From Spirochaetota bacterium (GTDB lineage Bacteria; Spirochaetota; UBA4802; JAFGDQ01): a DNA stretch of 46,020 bases. The stretch is from positions 1 through 46,020 of the forward strand of contig JAXHTS010000005.1 of NCBI GenBank assembly GCA_034190085.1, in the 5' to 3' direction. Below the pieces are notes generated by a model, which ran no database searches, was not told the origin of the DNA, and worked only from the letters and a program-made list of their open reading frames with translations. The position numbers and the translations under genes were made by a program. Below, piece after piece: positions 9,564 to 43,767 of this stretch (its first letter is position 1; each line of letters begins with the position of its first letter).

Positions 9564-10205
9564 TTAATAGTTTTCACTCTTAACAAAATCCGATACTTCC
9601 CTCCTGAAAGCCCTCGGCAACAAGTCAATGCCTGACTTTAGATAACCAAGAGTAACGATCATCGGAATTATTCTGTCATCAGGTATGTTAAACTCTTTTT
9701 TTATCTTCCCTTCATCTATTCCATCCATAGGATGAGTTTCAAGCCCCATCCCTTTTGCGGCTATCATAAGGGTCATGGCAAATAACGCTGTATTCTTTAC
9801 AGCAAAGAGCTTTCTTTGTAGGCTATCCTTATCTCCGTAGAGATTATGGGCTGTTCCTTTGGTTCTTTCAACGCCATCTGATTGGATGTAGCCTAATTTA
9901 AGCCAGCTATCAACTACCTTGTCTATATTCTCCTCTACTGCATTGGGATTAGCAATCATAATCAACACAGCAGATGCCTCCTCAACCTTTGGCTGATCAA
10001 AGGCGCAACCCCTTAAAACACTCTTCTTCTCAGATTTTTTTACTACTACAACCTCCCAAGGCTGTAAATTCAATGAAGATGGTGAGAGATTGGCGATCTT
10101 AATCAATTCCATGATTGTGTCATCACTAATAGCCCTTTCAGGATCAAAAAAATTGATTGATCTCCTCTCTTGAATTGTATTTATAACCTGTTGCTCTGAA
10201 CTCAT
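9564..10205 (-). CDS. FMN-dependent nitroreductase family oxidoreductase
   Basis: A 213-residue flavoprotein of the NfsB/FRase-I superfamily, which uses NAD(P)H to reduce nitro compounds, quinones or flavins. The N-terminal FMN-phosphate motif is ERRSINFFDP near residue 14, followed by LSPSSLNLQPWEVVVV near 40-56. The C-terminal half contains KNTALFAMTLMIAAKGMGLETHPMDG and IIPMIVTLGY, both typical of the fold. Dimeric and cytoplasmic by family. The ATG at 10205 has AAGGAGGATAAT upstream. It is separated from Ni-SOD by about 107 bases in the same orientation and may be co-transcribed with it. The true substrate is unknown. Confidence 0.92.
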   Translation of the reverse strand: MSSEQQVINTIQERRSINFFDPERAISDDTIMELIKIANLSPSSLNLQPWEVVVVKKSEKKSVLRGCAFDQPKVEEASAVLIMIANPNAVEENIDKVVDSWLKLGYIQSDGVERTKGTAHNLYGDKDSLQRKLFAVKNTALFAMTLMIAAKGMGLETHPMDGIDEGKIKKEFNIPDDRIIPMIVTLGYLKSGIDLLPRAFRREVSDFVKSENY

Positions 10206-10312
10206 ATTATCCTCCTTTGTATATGCCTTCTGATTATTGTTATTTCTTAATATTTAAGTTAGGGAAATACCGTAATATCCTTCAATGAAGGTGTAGAGTA
10301 TATGTTTATAAA

Positions 10313-10774
10313 TTATCTCTTATTACTAAAATAGATTCCTTGAAACTCATGTACAAGCTTGGTCAACTCTTCCACATATTTGATATCATTTGTCTGCTTT
10401 ACCTTCATTGCATAGACAATCATTCTATGGAGCAATGTTATTTGATTAATGTATTTGTTATATAGAGTTTTGTCGCTACTTTTAACCGGTTTTATACGCT
10501 GAGCCATAAAATATTGATATACTATATCTTGTATATAATTTGCGTGTGTTTCTTTATTATTGATCCACCGTACTATCTGATTATAATTCTTTTTCTTCTC
10601 TTTTGATAAATCCATGATGGACACCATGGACTTCCTGATCGTTCTTATATGCTCTTTGAGCATATGAATTCTCATTTCATCATCATAAATGCCGCATGGC
10701 ACTTCACAATGGGGAAGCGCTGTTCCCTTAAAGAGTAATAAATTAATGAACAATAGGGGAATTAACCTTTTCAT
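10313..10774 (-). CDS. sodN: Nickel superoxide dismutase with an N-terminal Sec signal peptide
   Basis: Dismutates superoxide to O2 and H2O2 with a Ni centre held by the N-terminal nickel hook. The hook is fully present: HCEVPCGIY, with H1, C2, P5, C6 and Y9, followed by DDEMRIHMLKEH and a long helical bundle. Instead of the short propeptide of Streptomyces SodN, the precursor carries a classical signal peptide (MKRLIPLLFINLLLFKGTALP) ending just before His1. Signal peptidase cleavage could therefore itself expose the Ni-binding amine; that is inference. I start at the ATG at 10774 because AGGAGAAGG lies directly upstream. The longer frame starting at 10813 lacks this and would bury the signal. 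No SodX-like protease is adjacent. The mature protein is about 132 residues, close to the family's usual 117 plus a short extension. Confidence 0.88.
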   Translation of the reverse strand: MKRLIPLLFINLLLFKGTALPHCEVPCGIYDDEMRIHMLKEHIRTIRKSMVSIMDLSKEKKKNYNQIVRWINNKETHANYIQDIVYQYFMAQRIKPVKSSDKTLYNKYINQITLLHRMIVYAMKVKQTNDIKYVEELTKLVHEFQGIYFSNKR

Positions 10775-10848
10775 AATCCTTCTCCTGTTGATAGAGTATT
10801 GTATAATGAACACCTTTCACAATATTTGTTGTAACTTTGCGATTCATC

Positions 10849-11097
10849 TTATTTGGTGGAGGAACTTCCTCTTCTAATTTCTCGTTTCCAGAAGACAATT
10901 ATGCCGTCCTTTCCAAAGAAGAGTTGAATCATCTCCCACCCCTGCTTCCCTCTTTCGTTTAATAGATTATTGAGGATGTTCATTTGGCTCAGAGTTATCT
11001 GTTCAAGCTTACATTTCCCAGCTTCTGAACAAAAATAGGTTAATTGATCAAAAGTCTCAGCTTCATGCTTGGTTATCTCATATTCTATCTTTTTCAT
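10849..11097 (-). CDS. Small DUF4177-like protein
   Basis: An 82-residue protein with no signal peptide. It starts KKIEYEITKHEAETF, and the C-terminal half reads LLNERGKQGWEMIQLFFGKDG followed by VFWKRE. That is the pattern of DUF4177 (strand, helix ending L-N-x-x-G-x-x-G-W-E, then two strands ending in FKR). Family function is unknown. I choose the ATG at 11097 because GGAAAGGG lies six to ten bases upstream; the longer frame to 11160 adds an atypical leader. Two Cys (FCSEAGKC) are present in the middle. It sits between flavodoxin and Ni-SOD on the same strand, so it belongs to the redox-stress neighbourhood. Family assignment is moderately sure. Confidence 0.65.
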   Translation of the reverse strand: MKKIEYEITKHEAETFDQLTYFCSEAGKCKLEQITLSQMNILNNLLNERGKQGWEMIQLFFGKDGIIVFWKREIRRGSSSTK

Positions 11098-11184
11098 ATT
11101 TTTCCCTTTCCAGTAATATAAAACGATGCAAATATAACTATTTTTACCTCTATCAATCAAGGCATCTATAGTGAAATACCTGAT

Positions 11185-11631
11185 TTATTTTCCCATCTTC
11201 TGGCTTAAGCTCTTGCCATATTCCTGACAGGCCCTCAAGCCTTCATCAGTTTTTAATATATCATCCTTTAGATTGAATGCTCCAAGGTCAGTCATATCCA
11301 TCTTGAAAACATGCTCCATTGTATCAAAAATTTTTGCCGGAGCATTTCCACTATGGGAATATGACCCAAAGGTGCCCCCAATCTTATTCTGAAGCTGAGC
11401 TTTATCAACTATAAACAGGAAGGTCTTCATCCCATCAGTCATATCACTATAATATGTGGGACAACCCAGAATATAACCATCATAGTTCTGTAAATCCTTA
11501 TCCTTTTTGATAGAAGAGATACTCTTTACAACCGCCTCATTGCCATCAATGCGAATACCCTCAGCAATATAATTTGCCATTTTTTCCGTATTACCCGTTC
11601 TGCTATAATAAGCGATTAGTGCCTTTTTCAT
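11185..11631 (-). CDS. Flavodoxin (FMN electron carrier)
   Basis: A 148-residue flavodoxin. The FMN phosphate-binding loop is SRTGNTEKM right after the first beta strand (KKALIAYY), and the second loop is LGCPTYYSDMTDGMK near residues 58-72. FGSYSHSGNAPAK corresponds to the FGSYGWSG loop of flavodiiron-associated flavodoxins. The start at ATG 11631 is supported by GGAGG seven bases upstream; eight extra codons are possible in the longer frame. It lies about 20 bases downstream of the flavodiiron protein and is presumably in its operon, so it may carry electrons to that enzyme or to rubredoxin-linked partners. Cytoplasmic. Confidence 0.92.
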   Translation of the reverse strand: MKKALIAYYSRTGNTEKMANYIAEGIRIDGNEAVVKSISSIKKDKDLQNYDGYILGCPTYYSDMTDGMKTFLFIVDKAQLQNKIGGTFGSYSHSGNAPAKIFDTMEHVFKMDMTDLGAFNLKDDILKTDEGLRACQEYGKSLSQKMGK

Positions 11632-11651
11632 GCGTATCCTCCAATTATTAA

Positions 11652-12848
11652 TCATTTACTCCTATTAGATAGGGCTTCTCCAATTTTTCTACCAAGCACA
11701 CGGCATGCCTCTAGTCCCCCCTCATCAGGAACGAATTGGATATTGATACCCGGATCGATAATATCCAATTTCATCTCCTCAAATTCCCTATTAATCAACT
11801 TCACAGCCTCCCCACTCCATCCATATGAACCAAAGGCTGCACAAATTTTATTCTTTGGCTTCAATCCCTTAATGTAGGTTAAAACATCTATGACTGTAGG
11901 GAAGAGGCCATTGTTCAACGTTGGCGATCCGACAATTACTGCCCCCGCATCCATCAATTCTGTCATAATGTCACTGCGATGAGATTTCCTTATGTTTATA
12001 GGTTTAGCAGCTACACCCTGCTCTGAAATACCAGCAATAATAGCCTCAGCCATCATCTCTGTGCTGTGCCACATAGTATCATAAATTACCAGGGCCTTCT
12101 TTTTAGGTTTCTGTTCGCTCCACTCAACATAAGCCTCTATTATCTCATTGATATCCCTGCGCCACATAATCCCATGATCAGGGCATATAATGTTGAATTC
12201 TAAACCAAGCTTTTGTACCTTCTCAAGTAGCTTAAGGATCAGAGGAGCGTAGACTAAAAGAATATTTGCAAAGTACTTTTTTGCATGCGGCATAATATCT
12301 TCCTCAATCTCATCATCAAACCTTTCCAAACTGGCGTAGTGTTGTCCAAAGGCATCGCTGCAAAATAAAATTTTATCATTTCTATCATATGTAAACATGC
12401 TATCCGGCCAGTGAAGCATCCTTGTTTCCAAAAAAGTCAGCGTCCTCTTGCCTATAGATAACTCACCTCCATCATCAACTGCTTGATAATTAAATCTATT
12501 ATGATAAAAGTGGTGGGAGAGGTTTTCAAATCCCTTCTTAGAACAATATATTGGCTTATCCTCTCCAATCTTCTTCATAACATCGGGCAAACCACCTGAA
12601 TGATCCATCTCTGTATGATTGCTAATGACATAGTCTATTCTTTTCGGATCTACTATATGACTGATCTTGGCTATAAGGTCACCGACAAATTCCCTCTTCA
12701 CTGTATCAACAAGTGTTATCTTATCATCCATCACTAAGAAAGCATTATATGTTGTTCCCTCCTTAGTCAAATACCCATGGAAATCCCTTATATTCCAATC
12801 AACTGCTCCTACCCAATATATATCAGGCGCTATTTCAACCGGCTTCAT
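11652..12848 (-). CDS. Flavodiiron protein (FprA / rubredoxin:oxygen oxidoreductase)
   Basis: Four-electron O2 reductase and/or NO reductase, protecting anaerobes in the cytoplasm. Of 398 residues, the N-terminal metallo-beta-lactamase-like domain carries the diiron ligands in HTEMDHSG (H-x-E-x-D-H, near residues 79-84), LHWPDSM (near 146), FCSDAFG (near 165) and CPDHGIMW (near 226). The C-terminal flavodoxin domain starts at KKALVIYDTMWHSTEMMA (near 252) and contains GSPTLNNGLFPTV and FGSYGWSGEA for FMN. This is the class A architecture without a fused rubredoxin. Separate rubredoxin (14186) and flavin reductase-rubredoxin (43063) genes could supply electrons. AAGGAGGAATAG precedes the ATG at 12848. 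Whether O2 or NO is preferred cannot be told from sequence. Confidence 0.95.
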   Translation of the reverse strand: MKPVEIAPDIYWVGAVDWNIRDFHGYLTKEGTTYNAFLVMDDKITLVDTVKREFVGDLIAKISHIVDPKRIDYVISNHTEMDHSGGLPDVMKKIGEDKPIYCSKKGFENLSHHFYHNRFNYQAVDDGGELSIGKRTLTFLETRMLHWPDSMFTYDRNDKILFCSDAFGQHYASLERFDDEIEEDIMPHAKKYFANILLVYAPLILKLLEKVQKLGLEFNIICPDHGIMWRRDINEIIEAYVEWSEQKPKKKALVIYDTMWHSTEMMAEAIIAGISEQGVAAKPINIRKSHRSDIMTELMDAGAVIVGSPTLNNGLFPTVIDVLTYIKGLKPKNKICAAFGSYGWSGEAVKLINREFEEMKLDIIDPGINIQFVPDEGGLEACRVLGRKIGEALSNRSK

Positions 12849-12909
12849 CTATTCCTCCTTGCATGCTTATTGTCTCCTAGTATAAAAATATGAATATTTT
12901 CTCCAATCT

Positions 12910-14097
12910 CTATTTCTGATTTATAATGTAGTCATAAGCTGAGAGCGCAGCCTTTGCCCCTTCACCTGCTGCTATGACCACTTGTTTATAGGGCACCGTT
13001 GTAACATCCCCGCATGCGAAAACCCCCGCTATACCCGTTTTGCATAGATTATCTACTGTAATTTCCCCCTGCCTGTTAGTATCCAATGTATCAATAACGA
13101 TCTCTGAATTAGGCAAAAGTCCGATCTCAATAAATATACCTTCAACATCAAACCTTAGCTTCTCCCCGGTATCAAGAGATTGTATCTCTATACCTTCCAC
13201 CATTGCATCCCCTATAATTTTAAGTGTATTATATTTTGTATAAATATCTACAATAGAAGAGTTCTCAACCTTTTCCTTTAGAACCTGATCTCCGGTTAGT
13301 GGAGTCAGTGAAATAAGGTGTATCTTCTTGGCAACCTTATCTAAATCAATAACAGCCTCAAGAGCCGAATTGCCACCGCCGATAACAGCTACATCAGCAT
13401 TAGCGAATAACGGGGCATCGCATGTTGAACAATAAGCAACACCCTTTCCAACGAGCTTATCCTCTCCCGGCACATTTAAGTGCCTCGGACGCTTTCCGGT
13501 TGCCAGGATCAAGGTTTTAGAATAATACTCATCACCAGATGTTGTTACCACCTTCTTTATCTTACCTGTAAGTTCAATGGAGACAACATCCTCCCCCTCA
13601 ACCTTTTCTACTCCATATTTTTCAACATGCTCATCAAACTTGTTGATTAAGTCTGCTGTCTCTATCTGGCTAAATCCAAGATAATTCTCAATATCATAGG
13701 TGTCAGCCACCTGCCCTCCAATGTTCTTAGTGATGATAATAGTCTTTAAAACCTTTCTAGCTGCATATATTGCAGCGCTTAAACCTGCAGGGCCACCCCC
13801 AATAATTATTACATCATAGATTGTTGATGGAGATTCCTTTTTAGCAAGACCTAAAAGCGTAGAAAGCTCTCCGGTAGCATCGAGGTTCACGATATCACTG
13901 TAACCACCAACAGATTTATCATCTATCAATATCTGTGGAAGAGAGGTACTGGAAGTTTTTCTCCTCATCTCTTCCCACTCCTGGGAACCGGGCTTCGAAT
14001 CGACCTCAGTGAACTCGATGCCTCTCTCCCCTAAGAAGGATTTTAGTTTATTGCAGTATGGGCAAACATTGGTTGAAAAAACGGTCACATTCGCCAC
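12910..14097 (-). CDS. Glutaredoxin-thioredoxin reductase fusion
   Basis: A 395-residue flavoprotein with an N-terminal glutaredoxin domain (residues 1-75; active site CPYC at 12-15, TSLPQILIDDKSVGGYSD typical of Grx). A TrxR-type FAD/NAD(P)H reductase follows from about residue 90. The FAD motif is IIIGGGPAGLSAAIYAAR, the redox disulfide YCSTCDAPLF, the NAD(P)H motif VIGGGNSALEA, and the final FAD contact FACGDVT. The architecture is an AhpF-like relay in which the reductase disulfide reduces its own Grx domain. Start is GTG at 14097 with AGGAGG upstream. It lies between rubredoxin and flavodiiron protein and could support peroxiredoxin or the UGA-containing protein upstream; those partners are inferred. 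Confidence 0.93.
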   Translation of the reverse strand: MANVTVFSTNVCPYCNKLKSFLGERGIEFTEVDSKPGSQEWEEMRRKTSSTSLPQILIDDKSVGGYSDIVNLDATGELSTLLGLAKKESPSTIYDVIIIGGGPAGLSAAIYAARKVLKTIIITKNIGGQVADTYDIENYLGFSQIETADLINKFDEHVEKYGVEKVEGEDVVSIELTGKIKKVVTTSGDEYYSKTLILATGKRPRHLNVPGEDKLVGKGVAYCSTCDAPLFANADVAVIGGGNSALEAVIDLDKVAKKIHLISLTPLTGDQVLKEKVENSSIVDIYTKYNTLKIIGDAMVEGIEIQSLDTGEKLRFDVEGIFIEIGLLPNSEIVIDTLDTNRQGEITVDNLCKTGIAGVFACGDVTTVPYKQVVIAAGEGAKAALSAYDYIINQK

Positions 14098-14883: not shown

Positions 14884-15675
14884 CTATGAATAAACAACAG
14901 CATCCACAAATAATTCGTATGTCTCATCTTCGTCAAGGTCATGAATCAGTACCTTCTCGACTGAGTTCGAGCCAGATATCTCCTTCAATTTAGATTGCTT
15001 CAATATCTTAACATGAGATTGCTTCAACTTTGTCTTCAATTCATCTGATGCTTTTACTTGTTTACCCATAGATAGCAGTATAACCCTGCCACTTATAGCC
15101 TCTAATTTTAATGCTACCTCTATACTATTATCGCCATTTTCTAATACCAATATTCGTTTGTCCTTTAATTCATTAAAATTGATATCCTTGACGTAAACAC
15201 CCCTGCCCACAAAATCATTCCCACCGGATATTTCATTCAAATTACATACCCTATAGTTTATAAACTCTTCAGACTCTATTTCTTGAGCGTTCTTACCCTC
15301 TCTATAATTCTTTATGGCATCATGAAGTGCATCTGCGGCTAAATTTGAGCAGTGCATCTTTATTGGAGGAAGGCCATCAAGCTCATCTGCCACATCCTGC
15401 CTAGTAATCCTCAATGCCTCATCTAGGCTTTTGCCTTTTGCCATCTCTGTTATCATGCTGCTTGTCGCAACTGCTGAGCCACAACCAAATGTCTTAAATT
15501 TAATATCTTCAATTGTGTCTGTATCCTTATTTACGTTAATATAAATCTCCATCAGGTCTCCACAAACAGGATTACCGACACGACCCATTGCTACATTCTC
15601 ACCCTCCAGGGTCCCAACATTTCGAGGATTTCTAAAATGATCCAATGTTTTCTCAGAATACTCTGTTGACTTCAT
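14884..15675 (-). CDS. IscU/NifU-type Fe-S scaffold fused to a thioredoxin-reductase-like domain
   Basis: A 263-residue protein. Residues 1-130 are a complete IscU-like scaffold: EKTLDHFRNPRNVGTLEG at the start and three cluster cysteines in NPVCGD, FGCGSAVA and MHCSNLAADAL. A linker (EFINYRVCNLNEISGG) follows. From about residue 170 the sequence resembles the NAD(P)H-binding half of thioredoxin reductases: KRILVLENGDNSIEVALKLE parallels the usual VIGGGDSAIEEAL, with a later VDAVVY strand. The first dinucleotide-binding glycines are lost (LENGDNS), so nucleotide binding is doubtful. Start at ATG 15675 has AAGGAG eight bases upstream; the GTG three codons earlier is too close. It lies 16 bases after the desulfurase gene. 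The C-terminal role is unknown. Confidence 0.85.
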   Translation of the reverse strand: MKSTEYSEKTLDHFRNPRNVGTLEGENVAMGRVGNPVCGDLMEIYINVNKDTDTIEDIKFKTFGCGSAVATSSMITEMAKGKSLDEALRITRQDVADELDGLPPIKMHCSNLAADALHDAIKNYREGKNAQEIESEEFINYRVCNLNEISGGNDFVGRGVYVKDINFNELKDKRILVLENGDNSIEVALKLEAISGRVILLSMGKQVKASDELKTKLKQSHVKILKQSKLKEISGSNSVEKVLIHDLDEDETYELFVDAVVYS

Positions 15676-15691
15676 ATACAACACTCCTTGC

Positions 15692-16855
15692 CTAACTTGA
15701 TAATGGTGATAACTCCCGTAATCGTTCCACTACCCTTGGAAGAACTTCTATTAATCTCTCAACATCATCCTCTGTGGAATATCGTCCAAGAGTAACCTCT
15801 AAAGAACCATGGGCCTCTTCATGTAATAATCCCGTTGCTATTAGGGTATGTGATGGCTCCAAGGTTTTCGATGTACATGCAGATCCTGTGGATATTGAAA
15901 TTCCTTCATCCTTCATAGATAATAAAAGGGATTCTCCTTCAATATAATCAAATCTGAAGTGAGCATTGTTTGCCAATCTGTTTTCCGGATGTCCGTTTAG
16001 ATATGATCTTGGTATGATCTCCAAAACCCGTTTAATAAGATGATCACGCAAATTCTTCAATCTCCGACCCTCCTCTTCCATATTTTTCTGGGCTATCTCA
16101 CACGCCTTTGCCATTCCCACAATGGAAGCAATATCTTCTGTTCCGGATTGCAGCCCCCTCTCCTGTCCACCGCCAATGATAATTGGATTAACATATACAC
16201 CCTTACGTATATATAGAGCGCCCAGGCCCCTGGGGCCGTATAGGTCATTTGAAGAAAGGGTTAAGAGGTCAATCTGATCTCTTACAACATCAATTGGAAT
16301 TACCCCCTCCGCTGCAACAGCATCTGAATGAAAATATATTCCCTTATCTTGTGCAATCTTACTAATCTCAGCAACGGGTTGGATTGTCCCGATTTCATTG
16401 TTCGCATATTGAATTGAAATAATGATTGTATCTTCTCTTATCTGTTCTCTTAGTTTCTCTAATCTCACAACCCCATGTATATCAACTGGCACTTTAGAGA
16501 CTTCAAATCCGTTTCTAGCCAGGTATTTAGCAATATTGTGAATGGATATATGCTCAACTTCAGAGATTATAATGTGCCGCCCCTTTCTCCTATTCCTCAT
16601 TGCGCATCCAATTATTGCCATGTTATTTGATGCAGTGGCACCAGGGGTGAATATTATTTCGTCTGGATTCTCAGCCTTGATGAAGCTAGCTACCCTTTTT
16701 CTGCTATCCTCCAATGCGTTAGTCGCTATATCACCATCATTATGTAACGCAGATGCATTACCAAATTTTATTGAAAAGTACGGAAGCATCTCATTTAGAA
16801 CATCCGTATTAACAGGTTTAGATGATTGATAATCTAAATATATATTCCTATTCAT
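15692..16855 (-). CDS. NifS/IscS-family cysteine desulfurase homologue lacking the PLP lysine
   Basis: A 387-residue fold-type I aminotransferase-class protein. Family features present: IYLDYQSSKPV, FTPGATASNNMAI, EVEHISIHN, QYANNEIGTIQPV, FHSDAVAAEG, and the active-site cysteine loop STGSACTSK near residue 325. The lysine motif is changed: where IscS has S-x-H-K-x-Y-G-P-K-G, this protein reads LSSNDLYGPRG, so His-Lys is Asn-Asp and no internal aldimine can form. As I recall, Archaeoglobus fulgidus IscS carries the same Lys-to-Asp change and still partners IscU, so a non-desulfurase structural or cluster-transfer role is plausible. The ATG at 16855 is chosen for its GGGAGG; an upstream GTG overlaps the DsrE stop. 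The operon order TusA, DsrE-like, NifS, NifU suggests a sulfur relay. Confidence 0.9.
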   Translation of the reverse strand: MNRNIYLDYQSSKPVNTDVLNEMLPYFSIKFGNASALHNDGDIATNALEDSRKRVASFIKAENPDEIIFTPGATASNNMAIIGCAMRNRRKGRHIIISEVEHISIHNIAKYLARNGFEVSKVPVDIHGVVRLEKLREQIREDTIIISIQYANNEIGTIQPVAEISKIAQDKGIYFHSDAVAAEGVIPIDVVRDQIDLLTLSSNDLYGPRGLGALYIRKGVYVNPIIIGGGQERGLQSGTEDIASIVGMAKACEIAQKNMEEEGRRLKNLRDHLIKRVLEIIPRSYLNGHPENRLANNAHFRFDYIEGESLLLSMKDEGISISTGSACTSKTLEPSHTLIATGLLHEEAHGSLEVTLGRYSTEDDVERLIEVLPRVVERLRELSPLSS

Positions 16856-16866
16856 CACCAACCTCC

Positions 16867-17232
16867 CTAAAACCACATTGAGCCTGCTGCATCCAATACC
16901 AGATCGTTCAAGGTAGCTGCTCCTACGATCTTCACTCCATCAATCAACTCAACTTTATCCCATCCAAGCATCTGCTTTGAAGCTTCACATACATATATCT
17001 CAATACCCATACTCAAGGTTTTATCGATCATATCCTTAACTGATGGAAAAGAGCCCAGCCTAATCTCATCAGCAACTCCTGGTTTTAGTATTTTTAATCC
17101 CATACCTAGATAATACACCTTAGGTTCTATATCCATTGCTCTAGCACTCTGTGCTAATACAAGTGGAGAATACTGCCTTTCAGGCGCATCACTTGTCTGA
17201 ACATAGAGCAAAAATTTCTCATTACTAGCCAT
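16867..17232 (-). CDS. DsrE-family small sulfur-relay protein
   Basis: A 121-residue cytoplasmic protein of the DsrE/DsrF-like (alpha/beta) superfamily: KFLLYVQTSDAPERQYSPLVLAQSARAMD, a YYLGMGLKILKPG loop, a central IEIYVCEASKQMLGW with one Cys near residue 80, and the C-terminal VGAATLNDLVLDAAGSMWF. In this family a conserved Cys carries persulfide or the protein serves as a partner of TusA and DsrEFH; the Cys here is at the family position. It lies between TusA (13 bases upstream) and the NifS homologue (12 bases to its ATG), all on one transcript. A Shine-Dalgarno (GGGAGGATTTAAT) precedes the ATG at 17232. Direct role is inferred from context. Confidence 0.85.
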   Translation of the reverse strand: MASNEKFLLYVQTSDAPERQYSPLVLAQSARAMDIEPKVYYLGMGLKILKPGVADEIRLGSFPSVKDMIDKTLSMGIEIYVCEASKQMLGWDKVELIDGVKIVGAATLNDLVLDAAGSMWF

Positions 17233-17244
17233 ATTAAATCCTCC

Positions 17245-17502
17245 CTATTTTGTTCTCTTAATTAAAAACCGTAAGACATCCTCATCCTTCTCGAAGTGCA
17301 ACAACTCATGTCCTGTGCGCTTAACAAAACGTTTAATATCCTCCTCAGCGGCAGGATCATCTGCAATTACCTCCAATACATTACCAACATCAACAGAATC
17401 AATTCCCTCTCGTGTCTCAAATAATGGAGCAGGACAAAACTTCCCCACAGTATCAATAACCTTGTCTGGTTTAATCATATCTTTTTCTGTCATCATAACC
17501 AT
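17245..17502 (-). CDS. TusA-family sulfur carrier protein
   Basis: An 85-residue protein of the TusA/SirA-like family. The signature is present near residues 19-30: DTVGKFCPAPLFETREGI, with the CPxP sulfur-accepting Cys, followed by VGNVLEVIADDPAAEEDIKRFVKRTGHELL. The family carries sulfur as a protein persulfide between desulfurases, DsrE-type proteins and acceptors. It is the first gene of the operon with DsrE-like, NifS and NifU genes. Three possible ATGs (17502, 17496, 17493) lie within four codons; GGATGG lies only a few bases before the last two, so the exact start is uncertain. The upstream region 17503-17683 is very AT-rich and probably contains the promoter. Confidence 0.9.
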   Translation of the reverse strand: MVMMTEKDMIKPDKVIDTVGKFCPAPLFETREGIDSVDVGNVLEVIADDPAAEEDIKRFVKRTGHELLHFEKDEDVLRFLIKRTK

Positions 17503-26013: not shown

Positions 26014-26508
26014 TCAGGACCTCAATGATCTTAGTTCTGAGCTAAGAAGGGCAATATGCTTCATCTCTTCATTTATAATCACATCAATCTCACTACGCCC
26101 ACGCTCCTCAGTAATCATCTCTTTCATACCAATATAAAACAAAATAGAATCCTTTTCCAAACCAATGGCTGTTTGAAGAATTTCTTCAATATCAATATTT
26201 CCTATAAGTTGCTCCGTTAAATTACCCTTCTCATCAAAAACCTGACCATCAGCCCATGCTTGCAAGTATAAGATTGCATGATCCTCAGGATCGTATACAG
26301 ATGTAGATTCTCCTAGACTTAACAACTTATTCCTCATCCCGGCGAACACCTTTTCATGCTCCACCTCCATATCTGCAAGCCTATTCAACAGATCACGGGT
26401 TATTTGTCTTGTGCTTGATTTAGCCGCACTGCTATAAAAGCTATTTCCATTTCGCTCCATCTGCTCTGCAATCTTTAGAATCTCATCAGGGCTAAAATTG
26501 ACTATCAT
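26014..26508 (-). CDS. Ferritin-like diiron protein (rubrerythrin-related, without rubredoxin domain)
   Basis: A 164-residue four-helix-bundle protein. Ligand-like motifs are E-x-x-G-x-x-F-Y in the first helix ([10 protein letters not shown]), D-M-E-V-E-H-E-K in the second, [15 protein letters not shown] in the third and [10 protein letters not shown] in the fourth. These match the ferritin-like/DUF2202-rubrerythrin pattern of two E-x-x-H pairs. It lacks the C-terminal CxxC rubredoxin domain, so it is more likely an iron or peroxide protein than a classical rubrerythrin. Its ATG overlaps the ferritin stop by four bases (ATGA), with GGAGGAATAAG inside the ferritin gene: tight coupling. It is the last gene of the oxygen-defence run. 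Confidence 0.87.
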
Positions 26509-27032
26509 CTTATTCCTCCATCTGCTGTCTCATTGGGTTGTGTAAACACACGTTGGGCCAATTCTCGATCTACTATAAAGAGTCCATTCCCCTGATCACC
26601 AATCAATTTTAGCATCTGCACCACCATATCCGCTGAGGCCTCTTCCTCAACCTGTTCTGATACAAACCATTGTAGAAAGTTAAATGTGGAATAATCCTTC
26701 TCTGTTTGGGAAAGATCAACGATGTCATGAATCAATCCTGTAACCTTTTGCTCATGTCTATAAGCATCTTCAAATGCATCAAGAGGCGAACCCCATTCCA
26801 ATGGAGGTTTCTCTATTAAAGCAAACGTTACTCGACCGCCTCTATTGTTAATATAATCAAAGAACTTCATTGCATGAACAAGTTCCTCCTGTGCCTGAAC
26901 TCTCATCCAATTTGCAAAACCATCTAAATTGATAGATTTAAAATAAGCGCACATCGCAAGATATAGATAAGATGAGTAGAGTTCAGCATTAAGCTGTTCA
27001 TTCAAAGCATCTAATATCTTTTTATTCATCAT
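26505..27032 (-). CDS. ftnA: Ferritin
   Basis: A 175-residue non-haem ferritin that stores iron as a ferric mineral. The sequence begins [27 protein letters not shown], followed by [23 protein letters not shown] (E-x-x-H ferroxidase ligands), then EKPPLEW, and the late helix [20 protein letters not shown], all canonical FtnA. I use the ATG at 27032 because GGAAGGGATAG lies upstream; the longer frame to 27089 overlaps the desulfoferrodoxin gene and adds no family residues. Coupled by ATGA to the next ferritin-like gene. Together with the peroxidases it would remove iron that drives Fenton chemistry. Confidence 0.95.
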
Positions 27033-27036
27033 ATCA

Positions 27037-27414
27037 CTATCCCTTCCATAATCCATGAAGGTTGCAATATTCTCTATATATTGAACCACTCTCTACGCAA
27101 CAGAAGGAAGCTTCAGGTGCCTCGCCTGGTTTTAAGTATATTCTATCGATCTTCCCATCTTTTTGTATGGTTTCAATCCATTCGATATAATGTTTCTCTT
27201 CCATTGGATGAGGAACATCTCCCACCTTAACCTTTACACCATGATCAGTATTTTCAACAACTGGGACATGCTTTTCCTTTGCAGCATCAACAGTATTCTC
27301 CTTAAATAGTTTCATAGGCTCACCACAGCAGACAAGCTCGCCCTTCCCTCCATGTAAAACTTCAATTATGTTACCACACGCCTCACACTTGTAAACCTCA
27401 TATCTCTCTGCCAT
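27037..27414 (-). CDS. dfx: Desulfoferrodoxin (superoxide reductase, two-iron class)
   Basis: Reduces superoxide to H2O2 without producing O2. The 125-residue protein has the N-terminal desulforedoxin centre [17 protein letters not shown] with the later VCCGEP completing four Cys. The catalytic centre II has its His and Cys ligands in [22 protein letters not shown] and YCNLHGLW. Length and motifs are canonical for class I/2Fe Dfx. The ATG at 27414 follows TAGGAGGAGACAA. It lies four bases ahead of the ferritin start, so the two are surely co-translated. The H2O2 it makes would be handled by the adjacent rubrerythrin and peroxiredoxin; rubredoxin is the usual electron donor. Confidence 0.96.
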
Positions 27415-27493
27415 TTGTCTCCTCCTAATATTTTTTCGGGGACTTATTATCCATTATTCCCCAATTATTATAAAATATAGACAAAATAATATA

Positions 27494-27982
27494 TTAAAAC
27501 TCCACAAATTGCTCCTTCTTTGCGCTGCAAACAGGACATTCATCCGGTAAAATTGCATCCGCAACATATCCACATACCTTACAGACATAATATGTGGTCT
27601 CGCTTTCCGCAGCCATATGTCCCATAGCCTTTTTATACAGCTTAGAATGAGTTTGTTCAACATCTCTGGATTGACTGAACAGCAGGGCTGCTTGGTTGTT
27701 ATCTTCCTTCTCAGCCTCTTTGAGAAATTCACTATATGCAACTTCTGCCACCTGAGTCTCTGACTCGAAGCTTGATGCAAGATTTTCCTCAGTGCTCTTA
27801 ATCTCTTTAAGCATTTTCAGCGAACGAGTGCCATGTATCTCCTCAGAGAAAGAAATTACACGAAAGAGTTTTGCTATCTGAGGATAACCTTCTTCCTCTG
27901 CTTTATCAGCAAAGACCTTCAACCGAAGCACAGCCTTAGCCTCACCTGTGTATGCTTTATGTAACAGTTCTTTTACTCCCAT
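27494..27982 (-). CDS. Rubrerythrin (short type with C-terminal rubredoxin-like site)
   Basis: A 162-residue rubrerythrin. Ferritin-like ligands occur in AYTGEAKAVLRLKVFADKA near residue 10-28, SFSEEIHGTRSL near 45-56, ESETQVAEVAYSEF near 74-88 and SRDVEQTHSKLY near 105-116. The C-terminal knuckles are YVCKVCGYVADAI and CPVCSAKKEQF. Unlike the two long rubrerythrins it starts GVKELLHKAY and resembles reverse-type or archaeal rubrerythrins. The ATG at 27982 has GAGGG upstream. It follows the Sec peroxiredoxin by about 50 bases and precedes Dfx, an arrangement consistent with one transcript that handles both peroxide and superoxide. Confidence 0.93.
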   Translation of the reverse strand: MGVKELLHKAYTGEAKAVLRLKVFADKAEEEGYPQIAKLFRVISFSEEIHGTRSLKMLKEIKSTEENLASSFESETQVAEVAYSEFLKEAEKEDNNQAALLFSQSRDVEQTHSKLYKKAMGHMAAESETTYYVCKVCGYVADAILPDECPVCSAKKEQFVEF

Positions 27983-28030
27983 ATTTTTGTACCCTCTTAC
28001 GAATTAGTTTATCTGATTACTATATTCTAC

Positions 28031-28738
28031 TTAAGGCTTCCATTCCTTCCATACATTACCTACCAAATCTGGCCCAGGTTTTAAGGTTTGACCACCTGGT
28101 TTCCAACCTGAAGGTGTTGCCTCAGTCCCTTTACTTGCACGAACATGCTGAAATGCCTGTACTTGGCGAAATGTCTCTTCAACATTCCTTCCAACAGGCG
28201 GTGTTAACACCTCATATCCCTGTACAACACCGTCAGGATCTATAATAAATCTACCCCGGTTTTCAACACCAGCATCTTCATCATAAACTCCATATACCCT
28301 CCCAACTCTACCTCCACCATCAGAAAGCATCGGAAAGGGGACGCCTTCATCAACCATCTTTGACAACTCATAATCATTCCACATCTTATGAACAAACATG
28401 CTATCAACGCTCATTGAGAGTACATGAACTCCAAGTTTCTCAAATTCGCTATTCTTATCAGCAACTGCCGATATCTCTGTTGCTCAAACAAAGGTAAAAT
28501 CTCCCGGATAAAAACATAAGAGAATCCATTTACCCAAATAATCAGAAAGTTTTACATTGATAAATTCGCCCTTATGATATGCCGGTGCTGTAAAATCAGG
28601 GGCTTTATGCCCTACCTTAATCATTGGTCTCTCCTCCTTCTTTATAATATCATTACTGCTTTCTGTCTCCATTGTTCCACTATCACCAATGGATGCACCA
28701 GTTGGACGAGCACAACCAAGAGGAATCTCTTCAGCCAT
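28031..28738 (-). CDS. prxU: Selenocysteine-containing peroxiredoxin (PrxU-like); UGA at the peroxidatic position
   Basis: Reduces H2O2 and organic peroxides. The frame is interrupted by TGA at 28484-28486 exactly where the catalytic Cys belongs: PGDFTFV[13 protein letters not shown], against the family's PGDFTFVCPTEISA. Everything else is canonical AhpC/Prx ([33 protein letters not shown]-like [24 protein letters not shown]). A stem GCAAC/GUUGC with a 13-base loop follows the UGA directly. The usual resolving Cys is replaced: ATPSGWKPG for VCPAGWKPG, and no Cys follows Sec, so it is a 1-Sec type enzyme probably reduced by a thiol partner such as the upstream glutaredoxin. Two starts have strong Shine-Dalgarno sequences: 28738 (AAAGGAG; adds a 38-residue leader with GCARPTGAS) and 28624 ([20 protein letters not shown]). 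Total 235 or 197 residues. Confidence 0.9.
28461..28486 (-). promoter_or_regulatory. SECIS-like stem-loop immediately after the peroxiredoxin UGA
   Basis: In the mRNA sense, UGA (28486-28484) is followed at once by GCAAC (28483-28479), a 13-base loop containing several G residues, and the complementary GUUGC (28465-28461). Bacterial selenocysteine insertion elements are hairpins inside the coding region just downstream of UGA, recognised by SelB. The 5-bp stem is short but perfectly placed. SelB specificity is species-dependent, so this remains a candidate. Confidence 0.5.
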
Positions 28739-28862
28739 ACATCTACTCCTTTTCGGTTTATTGATTTACACTCTCTAAATCACTTGTTATTTGCTGAACA
28801 TACATCTTCAGTACCCCTTTTGGAATAATTCTTTTACTACATGGATATTTCAATCAACCTCG

Positions 28863-29681
28863 TTAGAGAATACGAGAGAGTTGATCTATATGAATTCTCT
28901 CCTGCAATGCAAGACTCTGGAAAAATGTTATAAGTGATGGCTCTACTTTAGTAGCCATTGTATGATAAAGATCAAAGGCCTTGCATTCCATCTCCAGGGC
29001 TAATTCAAGAGCCTCCATCCTACTTGTTATTGACTCCTCATCAAACTTTAGAAGGGAATATGGTAGGGATATGCCCCCCTCCATAAATTCTGATTCCTTT
29101 ATATCCTGAACAGAAGGAGCATCTGGCCATACTTCCTTTAATTGAGTATAAATCATCTCTAAATGCTTACTCTCCATCTTAGAAAGCTTCTCCATTAAAT
29201 CCTTTGTCTCCATATCCTCAATTTTTTGCATAACTTTAAGGTAGAATTCCTGACTGCTCTTCTCCATCTGAAGAGCAAACAAAAAAAGTTCCTTAATATC
29301 ATTTACATCCTTAAAAAACTCCCTGGCTTCATCAGGAGGTCCCTTCACTAGCTCATAGGGCCAATTACTTACTCCTCCAATCATATTGTGAATATTTTGC
29401 AATCCGAGGTTACAGAGCAATATAGCCCCTCCCATGCTTCTCTTTCCTGAACGACAATATACTATAATCTTCTTCAGTCTCTCTAACTCTGAATACCTTT
29501 GATCCAACTCATTTAAAGGAATAAACCGAGATCCAGGAATATGTCCCTCCTCATATTCTGGCGGCGTTCTTACATCAAGTATAATGTATTCATCCCTACT
29601 ATCTCCCCGCAGAATGTCCCATACATCAACTGGATAAAGATTTTTAATTTTTTCCTCTGAACAAACAAGCTTTTTTAACAT
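28863..29681 (-). CDS. Rhodanese domain fused to a ferritin-like domain
   Basis: A 272-residue cytoplasmic fusion. Residues 1-120 are a single rhodanese domain: EYIILDVRTPPEYEEGHIPGS, the active-site loop VYCRSGKRSMGGA with the catalytic Cys, and IHNMIGGVSNWPYELVKG. Residues 130-272 form a four-helix ferritin-like bundle with E-x-x-H-type pairs: FALQMEKSSQEFYLKVM, KMESKHLEMIYTQL, ALELALEMECKAFDLYHTM and LALQERIHIDQLSRIL. The combination would couple sulfur (persulfide) handling to a diiron site; the reaction is unknown. GAGAGAGATC precedes the ATG at 29681, and a likely promoter lies at 29723-29750. It precedes the Sec peroxiredoxin in the same run. Confidence 0.9.
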   Translation of the reverse strand: MLKKLVCSEEKIKNLYPVDVWDILRGDSRDEYIILDVRTPPEYEEGHIPGSRFIPLNELDQRYSELERLKKIIVYCRSGKRSMGGAILLCNLGLQNIHNMIGGVSNWPYELVKGPPDEAREFFKDVNDIKELFLFALQMEKSSQEFYLKVMQKIEDMETKDLMEKLSKMESKHLEMIYTQLKEVWPDAPSVQDIKESEFMEGGISLPYSLLKFDEESITSRMEALELALEMECKAFDLYHTMATKVEPSLITFFQSLALQERIHIDQLSRIL

Positions 29682-43062: not shown

Positions 43063-43767
43063 CTATAATTTTTCAAATTTATCCTTGCCTGCCCCGCATA
43101 TAGGGCATACCCAATCTGCTGGAAGATCAGCAAAAGAGGTTCCTGGGGCAACACCACTCTCAGGATCGCCTTTCCCAGGCTCATAAACATATCCGCATAC
43201 CGTACATCTGTAACTGATATTATTTTCTTTATGCTTTTCATCTTTCTTCTCATCTTTAATAAATGTTGGAGCAGATTCCGGCGTTTTCCCCCTCTTAATT
43301 TGATGATAATACGAATAGGTCATTGGTTCGCCATCTTCAATCAATTCCGCTTCAATCACCTCCCCCACAAAAATTGTGTGAGTTCCTACATCCATACGCT
43401 GGACCAATTTTAATTCAAGATATCCCAATGCATGTTCTATTATTATGGGGGTTCCCATTGATCCTTTACGATAGTTAATGTCCTTACATTTATCATAGTC
43501 TCTACCGCATTTAAAACCGAAATTTCCAATAAGCGATAATGGGGCATCCTGACTGAGTATAGAAATTGAAAAAGAATCGCTATTAGAGATGCATTCATGT
43601 GTGAAATTCTGTTTATTTATTGCAACAGCGACCATAGGCGGCGAGCTTGTAACCTGAATAACAGTATTACAAATTTGCCCGTTAACTTTCTCTCCTTTTT
43701 GAGAAGCTATTATATAGAGTCCATAGCTTATCTTATGAAAAACTCTAGAATTAATCTTAGTGCCCAT
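43063..43767 (-). CDS. Flavin reductase-rubredoxin fusion (high-molecular-weight rubredoxin type)
   Basis: A 234-residue two-domain electron transfer protein. Residues 1-165 form a flavin-reductase-like FMN domain: [52 protein letters not shown], and [24 protein letters not shown] charged Lys/Glu linker ([12 protein letters not shown]) leads to the rubredoxin domain (residues 185-234): [17 protein letters not shown] and [16 protein letters not shown]. In Moorella such Hrb proteins pass NADH-derived electrons to a flavodiiron protein, so this may serve the FDP at 11652. GGGAGTAGAAT precedes the ATG at 43767. It appears monocistronic. Confidence 0.94.

Follow-up and report, generated by a model that had tools for sequence, protein, structure and literature searches.

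The window, a stretch of 46,020 nucleotides from a Spirochaetota bacterium, carries a NifS/IscS homologue without the PLP lysine (iscS-ND) next to tusA-like, dsrE-like and iscU genes (Table 1). Comparison with homologues from other genomes allowed us to infer strongly that iscS-ND lacks cysteine desulfurase activity. By sequence statistics, these genes form a dedicated cassette with an invariant chain of cysteines in TusA, DsrE, IscS and IscU. It appears somewhat probable that iscS-ND and its cassette are a cysteine-independent feed for Fe-S assembly, in which sulfane sulfur would pass from TusA and DsrE to Cys327 and on to IscU.

An intact gene does lie in the interval given by the sequence-only reading, with the qualification that it is on the minus strand, the plus strand of 15692–16855 having many stops. 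The likely ATG start is preceded by GGGAGG, which overlaps the stop codon of the upstream gene, and an alternative GTG start at 16876 would give 394 aa. The product belongs to the IscS/NifS family overall (Aminotran_5, E 3.4e-71) and scored 480 bits against TIGR03402, below the cutoff of 530.75. Its lysine motif, LTLSSNDLYGPRGLGALY (SSNDLYGPRG), replaces the S-x-H-K of canonical enzymes. Alignment to these enzymes bore out the earlier statement that His and Lys are lost to Asn and Asp (codons 16249–16247 and 16246–16244 for Asn203 and Asp204 in the 387-aa numbering) with the loop Cys retained. Compared with a class I cysteine desulfurase, the family and the loop cysteine were present, and the Schiff-base lysine, Gln183 (E. 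coli numbering; Ala in the window) and Arg354 were absent. The Lys of GPKG was rejected as an alternative Schiff-base lysine within the motif, since 35% of members, the window protein among them, have Arg there. Decay or an assembly error as the source of the substitution was ruled out by the intact frame and by about 120 homologues with conserved Cys and cassette; the view that the gene is undamaged thus stood.

Table 1. Positions of the cassette genes and of key residues of iscS-ND in the window.
Feature	Position	Strand	Description
tusA-like	17245..17502	minus	85 aa; PF01206 E 1.2e-21; CPxP cysteine in FCPAPL
dsrE-like	16867..17232	minus	121 aa; PF02635 E 5.9e-13, PF13686 E 4.6e-15; Cys in YVCEASK
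iscS-ND (NifS/IscS homologue without PLP lysine)	15692..16855	minus	387 aa; ATG 16855, stop 15692
Asn203-Asp204	16244..16249	minus	at the His-Lys position (E. coli IscS H205-K206), by alignment
loop Cys327	15875..15877	minus	equals E. coli IscS Cys328 and A. fulgidus IscS Cys321; within STGSACTSK
Glu353	15797..15799	minus	at the substrate-carboxylate Arg site (E. coli IscS Arg354; SspA Arg340)
iscU fused to TrxR-like domain	14884..15675	minus	263 aa; IscU residues 1-128, TrxR-like ~148-261

Residues were compared between 112 iscS-ND members and 53 canonical homologues. The Schiff-base Lys was replaced in 112/112 members and present in 53/53 canonical proteins, and the fixation of Asn and Asp is partly circular because both residues belonged to the search pattern. 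Outside that pattern, Gln183 was replaced in 112/112 members and kept in 53/53 canonical homologues. The substrate-carboxylate Arg354, also outside the pattern, was found in 0/109 iscS-ND rows and 52/52 canonical rows; no single residue had taken its place in the clade, where Leu, Gln, Glu, Val or Met occurred. SspA R340 was matched to E. coli R354 and window residue 353 because the spacing to the loop Cys is constant at 26 residues. In SspA, Arg340 and Asn150 bind the cysteine carboxylate and R340E impairs function (PMC7188994); the Glu at window residue 353 is exactly this substitution. E. coli IscS variants K206A, Q183E and H104Q showed no desulfurase activity, and R354K caused little change (PMC9978102). 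The loop Cys, the PLP-stacking His and the N1-binding (pyridine nitrogen) Asp were each found in 112/112 iscS-ND members, and the phosphate Thr of the PLP pocket and the C-terminal LR-x-x-S-P-L region near the IscU docking site were invariant and conserved, respectively. Since Lys, Gln183 and Arg354 are lost but the PLP-pocket residues are kept, PLP probably still binds in the pocket, which can no longer catalyse desulfuration.

Genome contigs were scanned with a degenerate DNA pattern encoding N-D-x-Y/H-G-P-x-G-x-G, which matched at least 118 stretches, and among the matches listed 118/118 loci were true IscS homologues. The hosts among these listed matches were archaea (Asgard groups, Bathyarchaeia, Archaeoglobi, ANME, Methanosarcinaceae, Thermoplasmatota and Nitrososphaerota) and bacteria (Deltaproteobacteria, Aminicenantes, WOR-3/Stahlbacteria, Actinomycetota, Nitrospinota, Eisenbacteria and others). 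With the motif columns excluded, iscS-ND was monophyletic against the canonical homologues (UFBoot/SH-aLRT 100/99; 200/200 bootstrap trees), and a second tree, also without these columns, placed the ND proteins on one side of a branch (SH-aLRT 99). By these trees, which included Archaeoglobus relatives and not A. fulgidus IscS itself, iscS-ND is one clade including A. fulgidus-type IscS. The sequence-only reading of a bacterial case was too narrow: the case is not a lone one, and the clade spans archaea and several bacterial phyla. iscS-ND occurred in 49/119 sampled Asgard-phylum genomes (about 40%), about 4/198 genomes of a deltaproteobacterial phylum and 1/393 genomes of the window's own phylum. 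The window protein was 74.6% identical to a Helarchaeota protein (L116), and their IscU proteins were 66.7% identical; the nearest relatives of the window TusA and DsrE were other clade members, not L116. Horizontal transfer, perhaps from an Asgard-type donor, is the most likely origin of the window cassette. A contaminant contig was considered unlikely, as a flavorubredoxin-type gene that lies about 2 kb outside the cassette was 68% identical to that of a same-family genome, in which the surroundings of this gene held no cassette.

The window genes follow in the order tusA, dsrE, iscS-ND, iscU, closely spaced and all on the minus strand, and Pfam confirmed each of the IscU-like, DsrE-like and TusA neighbours named earlier. 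The sulfur-relay context proposed for the gene proved to be very general across the clade. TusA was encoded on the same strand in 78 of the 87 loci with enough upstream DNA, TusA or DsrE in 80/87, and both in 50/87, and IscU lay downstream of iscS-ND in 75/89 loci. dsrE was absent beside about 40% of the members with room for it. Around 22 canonical iscS genes of the host genomes, TusA/DsrE was nearby in 0/22 and IscU in 10/22. The Fisher p of 3e-16 for TusA/DsrE, calculated before allowing for relatedness, is only indicative because the rows are related and the flanks compared differed in length (1.5 kb against up to 2 kb). The TusA Cys and both Pro of CPxP were kept in 87/87 linked homologues, and the DsrE Cys (YVCEASK) in 56/56. 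Neighbour clustering of the iscS-ND loci returned only TusA, DsrE and IscU as recurrent cassette genes and no recurring tRNA-thiolation gene; the other large clusters were reverse-strand shadow frames. Counts in a promoter/terminator scan were at shuffle level.

The IscU protein directly downstream of iscS-ND, for which an alternative GTG start lies at 15684, was matched by NifU_N (PF01592, E 2e-49), Pyr_redox (E 3.8e-6) and TRX_reduct (E 3e-14). It has the putative Fe-S ligands Cys38/Asp40/Cys65/Cys109, and Cys38, Asp40, Cys65, His108 and Cys109 were invariant in 34 fusions, of which 33/34 were matched by TIGR01292. IscU was found in three architectures: alone (~125–180 aa); with a full TrxR-like flavoprotein (~450 aa) that has the FAD motif and no CxxC, in ANME, Methanosarcinaceae and Freyarchaeota; and with an NADPH-type domain only, without CxxC and GxGxxA, in Asgard archaea and bacteria including the window. 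The window tail is not a thioredoxin reductase by these features, as CxxC and GxGxxA are both absent and the FAD domain is missing. An AlphaFold2 model of the window fusion gave two confident domains (pLDDT 91), with their relative placement unsure because the pTM was 0.57. In Foldseek, the first domain matched IscU and the second the NADPH domains of TrxR and TrxR-type ferredoxin-NADP reductases, e.g. 3LZW. Electrons for the reduction of a persulfide could come from the intact TrxR-like form; known chemistry gives the decayed form no means to deliver them. In one Euryarchaeota MAG (L031:1609-2365, minus strand), IscU and the TrxR-like tail were in two overlapping frames, perhaps by a frameshift or a split gene.

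The closest solved structure to the window protein was A. fulgidus IscS 4EB5 (E 1.8e-133, motif SSNDIYGPKG), and the earlier statement that this archaeal protein has the same substitution was correct. A. fulgidus IscS (IscS2, Asp199; 4EB5, 4EB7 and 4HVK, and 4R5F with D199K) shares SSND, the loop Cys and an IscU partner with the window protein, and TusA also adjoins iscS-ND in its Archaeoglobi relatives (L065, L083 and L104). The motif of 4R5F, which we take to be the D199K mutant, is SSNKIYGPKG. Unlike the A. fulgidus case, the window IscU has a TrxR-like domain, and the host is a bacterium that also has canonical NifS. In PMC7585200, A. fulgidus IscS is retold as having no desulfurase activity because Lys is Asp, in agreement with the earlier statement of an IscS-IscU complex without this activity. 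As retold there and in PMC9769115, Cys321 of this protein serves as a ligand of the IscU [2Fe-2S] cluster, and a figure legend of PMC9769115 indicates PLP in 4EB5. M. acetivorans IscS1 is also without the PLP lysine, and the IscS1/IscU1 pair is accompanied by four further genes without an assigned function (PMC7585200); compared by description only, these neighbour genes fit the cassette. Both proteins being reported without this Lys in PMC7585200, the substitution itself was already known. In the literature searched, with most subscription journals outside its scope, we found no description of the clade breadth, the further catalytic losses, a TusA-DsrE cassette or TusA-DsrE-IscS-IscU operon, or an IscU-TrxR fusion, and no biochemistry on clade members beyond A. 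fulgidus IscS.

Some other known systems resemble parts of the cassette. The minimal MIS system (MisS-MisU) likewise consists of IscS and IscU homologues without carriers or chaperones; it is described with a cysteine desulfurase (PMC12192291), whereas the window has the scaffold without the catalytic residues and so falls outside that definition. TusA and a DsrE-type protein are encoded together in rhd-tusA-dsrE2 and in the Metallosphaera dsrE3A-tusA modules, with conserved carrier cysteines (PMC4175335). Those modules feed Dsr/Hdr sulfur oxidation, whereas tusA and dsrE in the window are joined to iscS-ND and IscU.

Canonical H-K motifs were also present in 37/50 iscS-ND host genomes, and this coexistence indicates that iscS-ND is usually an addition and not a replacement. 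Archaeoglobus/Geoglobus MAGs and three closed bathyarchaeal chromosomes had no canonical motif, and the ND protein was the only IscS-class match there. A search elsewhere in the window's genome found two canonical NifS, L002 (SAHKLYGPKG) and L003 (SAHKIYGPKG), and a SufS-like protein (L001). Another contig of this genome (C15; L195:1802-5242, plus strand) encodes, in one frame of 1147 residues, a molybdopterin oxidoreductase with a C-terminal canonical NifS-type cysteine desulfurase, which may couple sulfuration to a Mo enzyme; a similar long frame was present in L132/L197 (G013:C24).

Other lysine-less NifS proteins were also observed. In the same phylum, L196:3399-6726 (plus strand) and L154 (G039:C16) carry TADANMVHGPKG, with Lys replaced by Met and the carboxylate Arg kept; this type was found in 1/296 genomes. 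The L196 operon reads tusA, dsrE2-like, nifS, iscU fused to FeS_assembly_P, an Rrf2 regulator and Nfu, and sits within a rubrerythrin/ferritin/peroxiredoxin island. L205:962-2188 (minus strand) and L203 (G655:C29) have Pro at the Lys position (LASNPFYGPHG) and have also lost Gln183 and Arg354; IscU adjoins, and tusA and dsrE are absent. Quick trees placed the Met and Pro variants outside the ND clade, and AU tests did not reject their grouping with ND (p 0.80 and 0.81, respectively), so we make no claim of convergent lysine loss.

The window also carries an anaerobe oxidative-stress island (139-714, 9564-14097, 26014-29681 and 43063-43767, minus strand). It encodes rubrerythrins, ferritin, superoxide reductase, a peroxiredoxin fragment, a rhodanese-rubrerythrin fusion, flavodoxin, a flavorubredoxin-type protein, a glutaredoxin-TrxR fusion, a flavin reductase-rubredoxin and a nitroreductase. 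As in the window, a flavorubredoxin-type gene lay a few kb from iscS-ND in nine loci from roughly three separate branches (L027, L033, L060, L063, L070 and L127 from Bathyarchaeia; L024, L087 and L097). With rubrerythrin, ferritin, superoxide reductase, peroxiredoxin, flavorubredoxin-type and TrxR genes around the cassette, cluster repair after oxidative stress is a plausible setting for it.

A relay running in reverse is the simplest reading of a protein set that has lost desulfuration but none of its sulfur-carrying cysteines. iscS-ND would descend from a cysteine desulfurase and retain its fold, PLP pocket and mobile-loop cysteine as well as the C-terminus that binds IscU. Sulfane sulfur on the TusA and DsrE cysteines would be passed to Cys327, which would present the sulfur to the three IscU cysteines and also act as a transient ligand of the cluster. 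The TrxR-like domain would be the remnant of a flavoprotein reductase that could serve to reduce the persulfide and whose FAD motif persists in some archaea; along the branch of the window, decay would have left it with a structural or docking role. Which way sulfur flows, what donates it and what this domain does are inferred only. TusA and IscU dock on E. coli IscS from different sides, to the same loop Cys and in a mutually exclusive way (PMC2854127), so the relay would be sequential. Counting against the relay, a canonical-motif desulfurase in 37/50 hosts means that the cell can usually draw on cysteine sulfur, dsrE is absent at about 40% of loci, and the published view of A. fulgidus IscS is that of a ligand donor.

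This published view, as retold in PMC7585200, leads to the main rival of the relay: iscS-ND would be a pure scaffold that holds IscU and lends Cys327, sulfur would come as free sulfide, and TusA and DsrE would be co-regulated for another job. Sulfide is plentiful in these anaerobes, and the archaeal SMS system can use it for Fe-S assembly (PMC12192291), but tusA/dsrE at 80/87 iscS-ND loci against 0/22 canonical loci and the invariant TusA and DsrE cysteines are left unexplained, and we regard this rival as rather unlikely. Sulfur could also flow outward, with a canonical desulfurase or IscU loading iscS-ND, which, like E. coli IscS, would pass sulfur on to TusA/DsrE to serve tRNA thiolation or other acceptors. 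TusA receives sulfur from IscS in E. coli, opposite to the direction proposed here (PMC2854127), and most hosts have the canonical motif; however, iscS-ND is the sole IscS-class protein in the Archaeoglobus MAGs and closed bathyarchaeal chromosomes and tRNA-thiolation genes do not recur in the cassette, which makes outward flow improbable. The invariant Thr, His and Asp of the pocket, and the PLP indicated in 4EB5 in PMC9769115, would suit a different, non-desulfuration PLP reaction with Asp at the lysine position. The lack of a fixed substitute for the carboxylate Arg and the Arg that often replaces the GPKG Lys speak against such chemistry, and we consider it very improbable. A degenerating gene without function has the loss of catalytic residues as its only favourable point; it is contradicted by the invariant loop Cys, the intact frame and the cassette across about 120 divergent genomes, and its probability is negligible.

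Well-studied ISC-type systems begin with the cleavage of cysteine. Since the structure of A. fulgidus IscS, with no lysine and no activity, it has been a puzzle where its sulfur comes from. The cassette offers a concrete, testable answer in TusA and DsrE, and the puzzle now extends from one odd species to an entire clade that is common in Asgard archaea. The graded decay of the IscU-TrxR fusion suggests how electrons once reached the scaffold. Tentatively, Asgard and other anaerobic archaea may widely share a separate line of Fe-S assembly that some bacteria have also received. Its lysine-less IscS would be fed inorganic sulfur via TusA/DsrE, not cysteine, and a repurposed flavoprotein reductase would be fused to the scaffold. 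If true, anaerobes would regularly use ISC-type assembly that does not depend on cysteine, and this would bear on Fe-S assembly in sulfide-rich settings.
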